Positions 25,313 to 29,209 of a stretch of 64,000 nt of DNA are shown piece after piece. The notes beneath the pieces were generated by a model. The model worked only from the letters and a program-made list of their open reading frames with translations. It was not told the origin of the DNA and ran no database searches. How positions within the stretch are numbered: position 1 is the first letter of the stretch; the number at the start of each line of letters is the position of its first letter. The position numbers and the translations under genes were made by a program. The DNA is from Aliterella atlantica CENA595. Lineage in GTDB: Bacteria; Cyanobacteriota; Cyanobacteriia; Cyanobacteriales; Chroococcidiopsidaceae. The DNA is taken from contig NZ_JYON01000005.1 of NCBI RefSeq assembly GCF_000952155.1, forward strand, positions 1 to 64,000. Direction: 5' to 3'.

Positions 25313-25551
25313 CAGGTAGTATATCTCAGTCTTTTGAAGTTTAGTTTTGAGCTTGTTAAACTATTTCATGCAAGCGATCGCTTCCAAATACTAACCGATT
25401 CTTTACAGAGCGAGCGGACTGCGGACAGCTTTACCACCCCGATTAAGAGCAACTAGCACCGTACAATAATCCCGTTGCACACCGACCGAATAAGGGCGCT
25501 CGGCGGCGGGTGGACGGGAACGTTAACCACTTCTTCTGAACCCAAAACGGA
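25313..25551. other. spacer before the first cassette
   Basis: No gene is seen. The last 100 bases are GC-rich compared with the neighbourhood. GTTAACC at 25522-25528 lies 23 bases before the immunity-like gene and could be the left recombination core of that cassette (one base off GTTRRRY). No matching left half with good pairing was found, so no complete attC is called here. Confidence 0.3.
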
Positions 25552-25986
25552 ATGTTTGCTATCGAATTTGTAGGTCAGCCGTGCATTGAATTTAACCAAC
25601 CGGCTATTCGCGGACGAATTACACTTGGCGACTTTTCAGAGGAGTTTGTTGCGCCGCTCGTTTTTTGGACAGTTGACGATTACCAAAAACAATGGCGCGA
25701 GGCTGCCGAACGCATTGTCGCCGGAGAAGCACGTTCCTGCTTTGCAGCTTCCATACGCGAATCGCCAGATGACGGCGCAATTTTTATCTGGACAGCTTAC
25801 AAACTTGCTGATACTGTTCATTTTCAGCACAAGTTATTGCTACCGGAAACTGTAAAAGGCACGTTTGAGCCGTTGAATATTTACGCGCAAGTTGACGAAC
25901 GCCAAACCAAAACAGAAGATGGCTTTCAGATTTCCGAGTGGCAAGTGACAGTTAAAGACGTTGCGTATTGGTTACGGGTGGGCTAA
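25552..25986 (+). CDS. CdiI-like immunity protein in an integron-type cassette
   Basis: The 144 residues resemble small immunity proteins of the CdiI_4 kind: FVGQPCIEFNQPAIRGRITL, GDFSEEF, FWTVDDYQKQWREAAERI, SCFAASI and a closing DGFQISEWQVTVKDVAYWL. Such proteins bind and block toxin tips of contact-dependent inhibition systems and are common cassette cargo. No toxin gene is nearby, so it would be an orphan that protects against neighbours. The stop codon TAA lies inside the R'' box of the following attC-like site, as is usual for cassette genes. Family assignment rests on recalled pattern, so it is moderate. Confidence 0.55.
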   Translation: MFAIEFVGQPCIEFNQPAIRGRITLGDFSEEFVAPLVFWTVDDYQKQWREAAERIVAGEARSCFAASIRESPDDGAIFIWTAYKLADTVHFQHKLLLPETVKGTFEPLNIYAQVDERQTKTEDGFQISEWQVTVKDVAYWLRVG

Positions 25987-26098
25987 CAAGTTATTAGACG
26001 TGAGGCAGGAACAGCAACTTTCCTTTCATTTAACGGTTCTTCTGAACCCGCAACTTGCGTGTAGCCGGTTCCCGCCTACATCAACGCTGCCGTTAGCC
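25981..26098 (+). repeat. attC-like recombination site 1
   Basis: The site has outer boxes GGCTAAC (25981-25987, fits RYYYAAC) and GTTAGCC (26092-26098, fits GTTRRRY), which are perfect inverses. Inside each, after a 9-base spacer, come imperfect inverse arms: GACGTGAGGCAGGAAC on the left and, read on the other strand, GATGTAGGCGGGAAC on the right. Total length 118 bases is within the attC range. The extra G in one arm could be an extrahelical base. Confidence 0.72.
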
Positions 26099-26200
26099 TG
26101 CTTCGTTTACAGATAGTGGTAAGACTTTGAAAATTATCTATTGGAAGCACCACAAGGGAATAATACCAGTGAAATAGTTGTTTGTATTACGGTTCAAGAT

Positions 26201-26272
26201 ATGGATGCTGAAGAATTGATTCGACGCTATGAGGCAGGGGAGCAGGACTTTAGCGGAGTGCGTATTGGGTGA
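26201..26272 (+). pseudogene. truncated start of a pentapeptide-repeat gene
   Basis: An ATG at 26201 opens 23 codons reading MDAEELIRRYEAGEQDFSGV and then a stop. This is the leader that precedes pentapeptide repeats elsewhere in the window (MTREELLARYQAGKRDFQGV at 13560). The repeats themselves are missing, so this is a broken gene fragment. Confidence 0.5.
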
Positions 26273-26333
26273 GAGTTTTACGGATGAGGACGATCAAAAC
26301 GCCGAAGACGACGGGGACAATCAACCCCGATCC

Positions 26334-26360
26334 AGAAGGATGAATAGCACCCATCCTTCT
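26334..26360 (+). other. inverted repeat AGAAGGATG upstream of the cassette 2 genes
   Basis: AGAAGGATG and CATCCTTCT form a perfect 9-bp stem around a 9-base loop, 55 bases before the next start codon. No T-run follows. It might act as a leader hairpin or operator. Confidence 0.3.
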
Positions 26361-26414
26361 AACCTCAAGGTATTATGGAGAAATCTCAAGAAGGTAGCGA
26401 TCGGGAGTCAGCGT

Positions 26415-26687
26415 ATGCAAGCGATCCTTTTAAGCCGTGAAGAAGTTGCCCGTCGTGCAAAGCAACTGTATGAAAATAGCATCCGTCAAAAAGTCGAGGT
26501 CGAAGAAAACATTGGCAAGATGGTGATTATCGACATCGAGACAGGCGATTACGAAGTTGATAAGACTGGCTTGCAAGCTTCTCGTAACCTTAGTAAAAAG
26601 CACCCAAATGCTAGACTCTTCGGGATTCGGATCGGATACAATGTTGCCGTCTCCTTTGGGGGTGTCATGGAGCGTGTTGACAAGTGA
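26415..26687 (+). CDS. small conserved protein coupled to the clan AA protease
   Basis: The 90 residues begin at MQAILLSREEVARRAKQLYE and include ENIGKMVIIDIETGDYEVD and NARLFGIRIGYNVAVSFGG. I recall similar small proteins next to clan AA aspartic proteases in cyanobacteria, where the pair looks like a two-component module. GGGAG lies 8-12 bases before the ATG at 26415, so this start is preferred to in-frame upstream starts whose extra 62 residues look non-coding. The stop overlaps the GTG of the next gene. An antitoxin-like or chaperone-like role is speculation. Confidence 0.65.
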   Translation: MQAILLSREEVARRAKQLYENSIRQKVEVEENIGKMVIIDIETGDYEVDKTGLQASRNLSKKHPNARLFGIRIGYNVAVSFGGVMERVDK

Positions 26688-27049
26688 TTTCTGGGATTGT
26701 AACAAATCAACACGCAACGATCGCTTTGACGTTCTTGTTACCCAATGGTTCAACTATCCCCATTGAGTTTGTCATCGATACAGGATTCACCGGAGAGTTG
26801 TGCCTTCCCATAGAAGCAGTCTCACTGATGGGTTTGACCTTTAGACACGATACGTTTGCAAATTTGGCAGATAACAGCGAGGTATCACTTCCTCTTTACG
26901 AAGCATTTGTCCTCTGGGATGGTATTGAGCGGGATGTGTTGGTCATTGCGACAGGTAGGCGACCTCTGCTTGGAACCGCTTTGCTGGATGAACAAGAGTT
27001 GGTGATTCAGTTTACAGAGGGTGGATTGGTGACGCTCGACGAGTTGTAG
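26684..27049 (+). CDS. clan AA retropepsin-like aspartic protease
   Basis: The 121-residue protein has the single-domain retropepsin layout: a first strand pair ISGIVTNQHATIALTFLLPN, the catalytic FVID32TGFTGELCLP, a flap-like region, and RRPLLGTALLDEQELVIQF near the end, where the hydrophobic-Gly strand is expected. Such proteins must dimerise to form the active site. The start is GTG, overlapping the previous stop by four bases (GTGA), so translation is coupled. The target is unknown; the partner encoded upstream is an obvious candidate. Confidence 0.82.
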   Translation: MISGIVTNQHATIALTFLLPNGSTIPIEFVIDTGFTGELCLPIEAVSLMGLTFRHDTFANLADNSEVSLPLYEAFVLWDGIERDVLVIATGRRPLLGTALLDEQELVIQFTEGGLVTLDEL

Positions 27050-27075
27050 ATGCATATCCAGCGTGACGCAACGCA

Positions 27076-27160
27076 GGCTAACAATGCAGTGGAGCGGATG
27101 GTTGAGAGTCTCCGCGCTACGTTCTAGTCTACTCGCCGCCGCTCGCTTCCGCCGTTATAT
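27076..27160 (+). repeat. attC-like recombination site 2
   Basis: GGCTAAC (27076-27082) repeats the left box of site 1 exactly, with the same AAC continuation. GTTATAT (27154-27160) is the right box, one base off GTTRRRY. After 5-base spacers on both sides, the arms AGTGGAGCGG and (other strand) AAGCGAGCGG pair at seven of ten positions. The length is 85 bases. It begins 26 bases after the protease stop. Confidence 0.62.
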
Positions 27161-27211
27161 AGAGTATCTTCGGGGAGTTTAAGCGGTTCCTTGCGGTAAG
27201 TCAACAAAAGT

Positions 27212-29209
27212 CTAATCTGCATTACTTAAAACTTCTGGCTCATCGTCTAATGAGAGGAGATATTGAATTAAATCTGTTTGCTCTTGCTTGCTGTATCCAG
27301 CGCGACGATCTACCCAATAATTATGTCCGCTTCCATCTACATTTGACTTTTGCAAGTTAGGATTAGCTTTATTAGCTGCGATCGCTTTTTCCCTTAATCG
27401 CCGATCTAGCAATACTCTCAAGCTATTACTCGGATCTGGTAAGATATTCTGCATTAGCGTTCCTGCCATGCCTAATTGAGTGCGATCGCCTAATTGATAC
27501 TCGTTATCGCCTTCAGTAAGTGCGTCTACTCCCGCCGCTACCCCACCATCGTGCAAATAGGGCGCGGTAACGTGCAAGCCAATTAAGCTAGGTACTTTAT
27601 AACCGCCTGCATTTCCTTGGGCTAAAGCAAGTTGTTGTGCAGGTAAAGGTGTTATATCAACAGGAACATCTAATACAGGTGGATCTGGTGGTAGAGGTAC
27701 GTTGACGTTACTAGGGTAAGTCTGCGGCGATGTAAAAATGCGCGGGAACTTCGAGAAAGCTGTCGCCCGCGATGGTTGAGTCAAAATTTCTTTCGCTGGA
27801 ATGACATCATGATTGGTGAAATAACGTCCGCTATGACATTGCACGCAGCTAGCACGACTAAAAACTTTTGCTCCCCGCGCTACAGCTTCTTTATCTAACT
27901 GATTATTTGCTGGTGGTGCAAGGGTATTTTGCCATGCAGACATCCCATTAATTTGTTGTCCTACCGGATAACCTGGCGAACTTGCCATCAATCCATCTAA
28001 AATAAATGGCGAACCTTTGGGATATCCAGGCATTGGTATCACCTCATTCATACCTGCTACGCCTGGTGTGGGATCTATTTTCTGAAAAAATTCCGATGGT
28101 TTTGCGCCTTTAGGCAAGCGAAATCTTGAATTAGCTGAATTTTGTAGAATTACGCCTAAGTAAGTCTCTCGATCAATTCCTAGTAACTTTTGACTTGCAT
28201 CTGCGCCTGTTGTTAAGTCTGAGTTAGTTCCATGTACGTTGCTATTTAGTGTAGTTAGCCCGTGAAACCAACCAATTGCAGCATTTCCACTCCAACCATA
28301 AGGGAATGCTTCGTGAGTGTAAGAAGATGGATTTTGCGACGGGTTATTGACATTATCTCCGGTAGAATCAAAGTTACCAGGCGACCATGTAAGTAATTGT
28401 GCGTCAACAGCTTTTTCTAAAGCTTGGGCATCGGGAAGATATGCTTGTTTGTTGTCTGCTTTGGTGTAAACTACGTCAGCTGTGCCAATTTTTAGCGGGT
28501 TAACTCCTGTTTGCCTAAACCAAGCGGCTGAGTTGCTAGCTAATGCCAAAATTAAGCCTGTATCTAAGTCGTTATTTGGTGCGCCTTCGAGGATGCGTCC
28601 GCTTTTGCTATCTACTGCTGCATGACACGCCGCACAAGTGACACCGACGCGAATTTTACCTTGATGGATTACTGTTTGAATGCCTAACGGTACTAGGGAA
28701 CCTGTAGCTACATCTAAGCCTGTGTTGAGGATGGTTCCTTTTTTTAAGGCGCGATCGCCTACAACCATATCTCGATCTAAGCTAACTTGCAAGTTGGTTG
28801 TATGCTTGCCTTTGAGAGATGCGATCGCTTTTGCTAAATTACCGATATTCAATGGTCCATTTAATATGCCCGTTACATCGGTAAAAAATACTTCATTTTT
28901 GAATGTTTCGCTATAAAATGCTTTGCGCCCTACTGATAATAAGCGATCGTCTATAGCAACTGCGCCGTTTTCTGGTGCTAGTTTTTCCCTACCTTCATCT
29001 GTTTGCGACAGTTGTGCGGCTTCTGCTTTGTCTACTGTACGACCTAATATATCGTAACTGCCAACCCCTGAAGGTGCAGACTGGGTAACGGGTGTATAAG
29101 TTTTACCTAAACTTGGCGTACCAGGAATAATTAGTTCTACTTGGTAGGCTAAAAAACCAATGAGGATAATTATAGAAAGTATGACAATTACAATCGAGCG
29201 CAACCGCAT
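27212..29209 (-). CDS. di-haem c-type cytochrome, cytochrome c peroxidase-like
   Basis: The 665-residue protein has one N-terminal anchor (SIVIVILSIIILIGFLAYQV) and two haem-binding motifs, VTCAACHAAV and ASCVQCHSGR. The second half has the TAPYLHDGG loop of the di-haem peroxidase/MauG class, which normally precedes a distal haem site. It is expected in the periplasm or lumen, anchored to the membrane. Whether it is a peroxidase or only an electron carrier cannot be told. It starts 206 bases from the divergent gene at 29416, leaving a shared promoter region. Confidence 0.8.
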   Translation of the reverse strand: MRLRSIVIVILSIIILIGFLAYQVELIIPGTPSLGKTYTPVTQSAPSGVGSYDILGRTVDKAEAAQLSQTDEGREKLAPENGAVAIDDRLLSVGRKAFYSETFKNEVFFTDVTGILNGPLNIGNLAKAIASLKGKHTTNLQVSLDRDMVVGDRALKKGTILNTGLDVATGSLVPLGIQTVIHQGKIRVGVTCAACHAAVDSKSGRILEGAPNNDLDTGLILALASNSAAWFRQTGVNPLKIGTADVVYTKADNKQAYLPDAQALEKAVDAQLLTWSPGNFDSTGDNVNNPSQNPSSYTHEAFPYGWSGNAAIGWFHGLTTLNSNVHGTNSDLTTGADASQKLLGIDRETYLGVILQNSANSRFRLPKGAKPSEFFQKIDPTPGVAGMNEVIPMPGYPKGSPFILDGLMASSPGYPVGQQINGMSAWQNTLAPPANNQLDKEAVARGAKVFSRASCVQCHSGRYFTNHDVIPAKEILTQPSRATAFSKFPRIFTSPQTYPSNVNVPLPPDPPVLDVPVDITPLPAQQLALAQGNAGGYKVPSLIGLHVTAPYLHDGGVAAGVDALTEGDNEYQLGDRTQLGMAGTLMQNILPDPSNSLRVLLDRRLREKAIAANKANPNLQKSNVDGSGHNYWVDRRAGYSKQEQTDLIQYLLSLDDEPEVLSNAD

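Follow-up and report, generated by a model that had tools for sequence, protein, structure and literature searches.

The 64,000-nt stretch analysed here (the window) lies on contig C32 of the 5.27-Mb draft genome of Aliterella atlantica CENA595 and holds a block that is very probably a CALIN (cluster of attC sites lacking an integron integrase), in other words a small island of integron cassettes with no integrase of its own. Its cassettes would have been recombined by a since-lost integrase into a site other than attI. The order of the island is attC0, a CdiI-type immunity gene, attC1, the truncated start of a pentapeptide-repeat gene followed by a small gene and a protease gene, and finally attC2; all sites and genes are given on the + strand. 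A CALIN is recognized when two or more attC sites lie within 4 kb of each other with no integrase gene (intI) in the vicinity, and here attC0 and attC2 are about 1.6 kb apart with attC1 between them, while no intI homology was found in the window, in line with the first-pass annotation of this DNA. The block shares with other CALINs the close spacing of two or more attC sites, the co-directional accessory genes and the lack of a nearby intI, and thus belongs to an already known kind. It differs in that only three sites are present, of which one is degraded and another unusual in type, and in that the genome also has isolated single attCs. The CALIN reading had already been proposed in the first-pass annotation, and it held, as did the assignment to a cyanobacterial host: the HIP1 (highly iterated palindrome) octamer GCGATCGC occurs 105 times in the window compared to 0.8 expected copies, which identifies the DNA as cyanobacterial.

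attC sites of the island

To score the sites, two attC covariance models were built, neither of which included any sequence from the window. Model R1 was trained on ten attCs from the same order; nine came from the vicinity of intact integron integrases, the tenth from an attC-bearing stretch of genome G007 without an integron integrase. Model R2 was trained on twelve cassettes from proteobacterial class 1 integrons. Both were run on the window by cmsearch with the filters off. In the L helix of the cyanobacterial attCs, four out of seven pairs show compensatory changes with both sides altered. A model pooling cyanobacterial and class 1 attCs was rejected as its alignment set the L arms out of register, and a scan of the window against Rfam at the gathering threshold gave no match.

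The two attC-like sites of the first-pass annotation were both found at the positions given there. The second, attC2 (27076–27160), was the top window match of R1 (42.3 bits, E 1.3e-7) as well as of R2 (30.7 bits, E 2.3e-5), in both cases over exactly these positions. As annotated, GGCTAAC is repeated at 27076 and the site has its own inner arms; the R'' and R' boxes GGCTAAC/GTTATAT pair in the core, and the L arms GAGCGG(A)/CCGCTC carry an extrahelical base. The site is 81% identical over 89 bp to the attC of G007 and resembles the attCs located beside cyanobacterial intI genes, the type for which a cyanobacterial model has been published (PMC8352920). Folding of the bottom strand, which the annotation had proposed for both sites, was uninformative for attC2, its energy being not better than that of shuffles; the identity of attC2 therefore rests on the covariance models and on homology. 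Judged by these, attC2 is an attC site.

attC1 (25981–26098), 118 bp in length with a long terminal structure, has the anatomy of an attC site, as read from its boxes and arms and beyond what chance yields in shuffled DNA. Its outer boxes GGCTAAC (25981–25987) and GTTAGCC (26092–26098) are perfect inverses, as had been noted before, and as R boxes they are complementary at 7/7 positions, although the second base of GGCTAAC deviates from the strict R'' consensus RYYYAAC. The spacers of 9 nt on each side, complementary at 9/9 positions, are like those of aadA-type sites, and the L arms GACGT(G)AGGC/GCCTACATC, read directly, include an extrahelical base as well as a single C-A mismatch. No other pair in the window combines 7/7 R boxes with an L-stem score of 10, and none of 100 dinucleotide-shuffled versions of the 64 kb contained such a pair. 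The bottom strand of attC1 did fold better than most shuffles (z = -2.5; 2/200 equally good). In addition, TTCTTCTGAACCC is found twice, at 25522–25549 at the start of cassette 1 and at 26032–26059 in the attC1 loop, possibly by chance and possibly through duplication.

The annotation missed a third site, attC0 (25457–25528), so its count of two was too low. R1 matched this site weakly (25461–25528, 14.2 bits, E 0.5). A deletion of about 20 bp has affected its loop and the R'' box is mutated, and the R' box GTTAACC is intact. Over AATCCCGTTGCACACCGACCG and CGGGTG it aligns with attCs of two related genomes, G153 (45 bits by R1) and G158 (20.9 bits); on this alignment attC0 is homologous to both, and hence a degraded attC.

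Edges of the insert

The flanking genes of the island are joined in G149 and G150, the two congeners found to have both of them, with only about 50 and 65 bp, respectively, between the aligned flanks. The counterpart of this interval in the window is about 1.8 kb long and contains the three attC sites. A gene order shared by many cyanobacteria without turnover of cassettes, which the first-pass annotation would have taken as a sign of chance boxes, is not what these congeners display, as both lack the insert. The right edge (27150–27160, +) was placed by the alignment of the right flank with G150, which starts with CGCC at 27150 (window CGCCGTTATATAG, G150 CGCCGATATATAG) and puts the edge at a canonical attC crossover, G^TT, at 27154^27155. 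As expected of a gene cassette, the insert is thus absent from relatives and ends, on its right side, at the crossover. On the left, similarity to G149 and G150 ends at 25373 and window-specific DNA precedes attC0 (25374–25456); the left junction lies at about 25374–25412, the sequence beyond 25373 being too diverged to fix the base.

The simplest reading of the compared sequences is that the difference between empty and filled site reflects an insertion in this lineage. HIP1 octamers are absent from 25382 to 27377, which fits a recent entry, yet similar-sized gaps occur elsewhere in the window. By GC content the insert is inconspicuous.

Cassette genes

The genes of the island had been annotated as accessory genes, immunity-like and protease, and both assignments were supported by domain searches. 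Cassette 1 (gene at 25552–25986) encodes a protein of 144 aa with a CdiI_N domain (PF18228, 6.9e-45), and the TAA stop (25984–25986) of its open reading frame falls, as previously noted, inside the first attC1 box. The protein is similar over its full length to CdiI of Enterobacter cloacae (PDB 4ntq_B, 2.3e-15) and about 30% identical to its enterobacterial relatives, but in contrast to the E. cloacae system no toxin gene adjoins it. On enterobacterial plasmids, relatives adjoin polymorphic toxin genes or stand near a VgrG gene; further relatives occur in Proteobacteria, Streptomyces, Planctomycetes and Ignavibacteria. No attCs were found near 33 CdiI relatives from Proteobacteria, Streptomyces, Planctomycetes and others. 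Because the CdiI_N domain is rare in the class (3/390 genomes) and attC1 is unusual, differing from the cyanobacterial type captured by R1, the evidence points to an origin of cassette 1, gene and attC together, outside Cyanobacteria.

Cassette 2 probably originated within Cyanobacteria. Its first gene (26415–26687) encodes a 90-aa protein without any Pfam or NCBIfam match, so far of unassigned family, and overlaps the second gene (26684–27049), which has a GTG start and encodes a clan AA aspartic protease of 121 aa (TIGR03698, 5.9e-19, over the cut-off). This gene pair is widespread and conserved together in many cyanobacteria. A strong attC (64.9 bits) comes after the pair in G159, so that genes plus attC exist as a unit in another genome as well. 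In four genomes the homology to the pair begins sharply at 26367–26368, inside cassette 2, which suggests that two former cassettes fused after loss of the attC between them. The cassette also contains a relic that the first-pass annotation had not listed, the truncated start of a pentapeptide-repeat protein gene (26201–26272, MDAEELIRRYEAGEQDFSGVRIG*), with short DNA matches in six genomes (G001, G011, G017, G026, G119 and G158); in G017 the matching DNA begins the gene of a complete pentapeptide protein of 159 aa. The description of the genes as promoterless-looking was neither backed nor contradicted, as four weak promoter-like matches were obtained where 2.2 are expected.

Integrase genes and alternative origins of the island

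No complete integron was identified in the genome, as there is no match over the TIGR02249 cut-off and no intact intI. The look-up of intI suggested by the first-pass annotation did, however, recover a C-terminal relic (C31:26867–27043, - strand), a 65-aa open stretch whose match to the integron integrase family TIGR02249 (1.2e-12) is much stronger than that to XerC/XerD (5e-4 or worse). The relic is located on a contig other than that of the window, and no attC was found on C31. R1 identified seven attCs at E <=1e-3 in the genome, on five contigs. Besides those of the island, six strong attCs are present: a pair on C17 and one each on C52, C15, C32 (at 103443) and C41. The C17 pair (C17:393752–394421) frames a GNAT acetyltransferase gene, and the gene before its first attC, the stop codon of which lies inside that attC, encodes an AHJR-like restriction-endonuclease-fold protein with a HEPN-like end. 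The single attC on C41 (66712–66796) lies behind a gene that probably encodes an SMI1/KNR4 (SUKH) immunity protein, which makes this the second immunity-type cassette of the genome; in the congeners, the flanks of this cassette are on different contigs.

Within the order, intI over the family cut-off was found in 13 of 149 genomes, some of which belong to the same family as the window's genome; fragments occur in many more. Many of the copies are truncated or ridden with stop codons, which suggests repeated gain and loss of the integrase. This frequency of degraded copies would also fit an unlikely alternative, namely that the island is the remnant of a full local integron which once had its intI and attI at this place and lost both by deletion, so that just the last cassettes are left; attC0 stands where an attI-proximal site could be. 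Such a remnant is difficult to reconcile with the two congeners, the short interval of which contains no trace of intI or attC, with the lack of intI homology in the window, and with the position of the only intI relic on a contig devoid of attCs.

Sites of this kind are common and scattered. At E <=0.01, attCs were obtained in 16 of the 19 family members, and at E <=1e-3 in 111 of 156 sampled Cyanobacteriia genomes, a count that is based on the scoring of no more than 28 candidates in each genome and does not by itself tell integron arrays from scattered cassettes. Cassette DNA in a cyanobacterium, which the first-pass annotation had taken to point to transfer or a local chromosomal integron, is not unusual. 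The listed genomes of a small-genome family (f34) and of family f33 yielded no attC, or one match in one case each, and this near-absence argues for specificity. Scatter was measured in two near-complete chromosomes: G135 has 37 attC sites in 18 clusters (10 of them singletons) across 5 Mb, and contig 1 of G155 has 29 sites in 18 clusters (13 singletons). The distribution over whole chromosomes, often as single sites, would also be expected of a dispersed repeat outside integrons (a miniature inverted-repeat transposable element, an element like repetitive extragenic palindromes, or a terminator) that merely resembles attC. However, the same sites adjoin intact integron integrases, attC2 is scored by R2, which was trained exclusively on proteobacterial class 1 cassettes, the insertion edge is at the attC crossover, and stop codons of genes abut the sites. 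This very improbable explanation is thus largely refuted. That the boxes arose by chance in an ordinary intergenic region, with the genes acquired by other means, is hardly credible even though the models did not score attC1, given the E-values of attC2, the shuffles for attC1, the homology of attC0 and the empty site; E-values, homology and empty site rule it out for attC0 and attC2.

Several observations nevertheless weigh against an insertion of cassettes by an integrase. The attC covariance search suggested by the first-pass annotation confirmed attC2 with both models, but attC1, which had been regarded as the stronger site, was scored by neither. Relatives of attC1 were also not found in 293 genomes of the order; three weak DNA matches within the order were rejected as chance matches rather than attCs. 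Unscored by the models and without known relatives, attC1 owes its place among attC sites to its anatomy. The left junction lacks a clean G^TTRRRY start, and the empty site could in principle have arisen by deletion in the relatives instead.

Discussion

A route by which an integrase would have formed the island can be proposed. IntI, at that time encoded elsewhere in the genome, would have recombined cassettes into an intergenic non-attI site; to this end, the bottom strand of the cassette would fold into a hairpin and IntI would cut G^TT in the R' box. Cassettes arriving afterwards would have joined at the attC sites of those already there. After the loss of intI, the island would change by mutation only, and such decay may be seen in the loop deletion of attC0 and in the truncated gene start in cassette 2. 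The first step would be similar to recombination at attG sites, the core motif of which is GWT: the window cassettes likewise reside in an ordinary chromosomal site without attI, and the core of the empty site is GAT in one relative. Cassette insertion at attG sites in bacterial genomes is attributed to Loot et al. (2024) in the accounts of PMC12901181 and PMC12444791; unlike those experiments, the case in the window is an evolutionary trace.

Integron gene cassettes are best known for spreading antibiotic resistance, and integrons have been studied mostly in Proteobacteria. In one survey, 93% of complete integrons were found in Gammaproteobacteria (PMC9024848). Published lists of integron-bearing phyla include Cyanobacteria (PMC8618304), and an attC covariance model specific for them is available (PMC8352920). 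No description of genome-wide attC scatter in cyanobacteria was found in the literature outside subscription papers and preprints. We consider it possible, albeit somewhat doubtful, that integron cassettes across Cyanobacteria are not mainly kept in one resident array but have been seeded as single cassettes or small clusters into numerous ordinary chromosomal positions by integrases that were repeatedly lost; the island described here would be one of these insertions and would include a CdiI cassette with a foreign attC type from another phylum. The clean pair of empty and filled site, together with chromosomes that have about 18 attC loci, provides natural material on the question whether integrases in nature also place cassettes outside integrons.

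With cassette 1, the cell would be protected against a contact-dependent (CDI-type) toxin, or a similar polymorphic one, that it does not carry itself. Stand-alone immunity genes, CdiI and probably SUKH, travel as cassettes, and this is relevant to the ways in which bacteria withstand toxins that they do not make.
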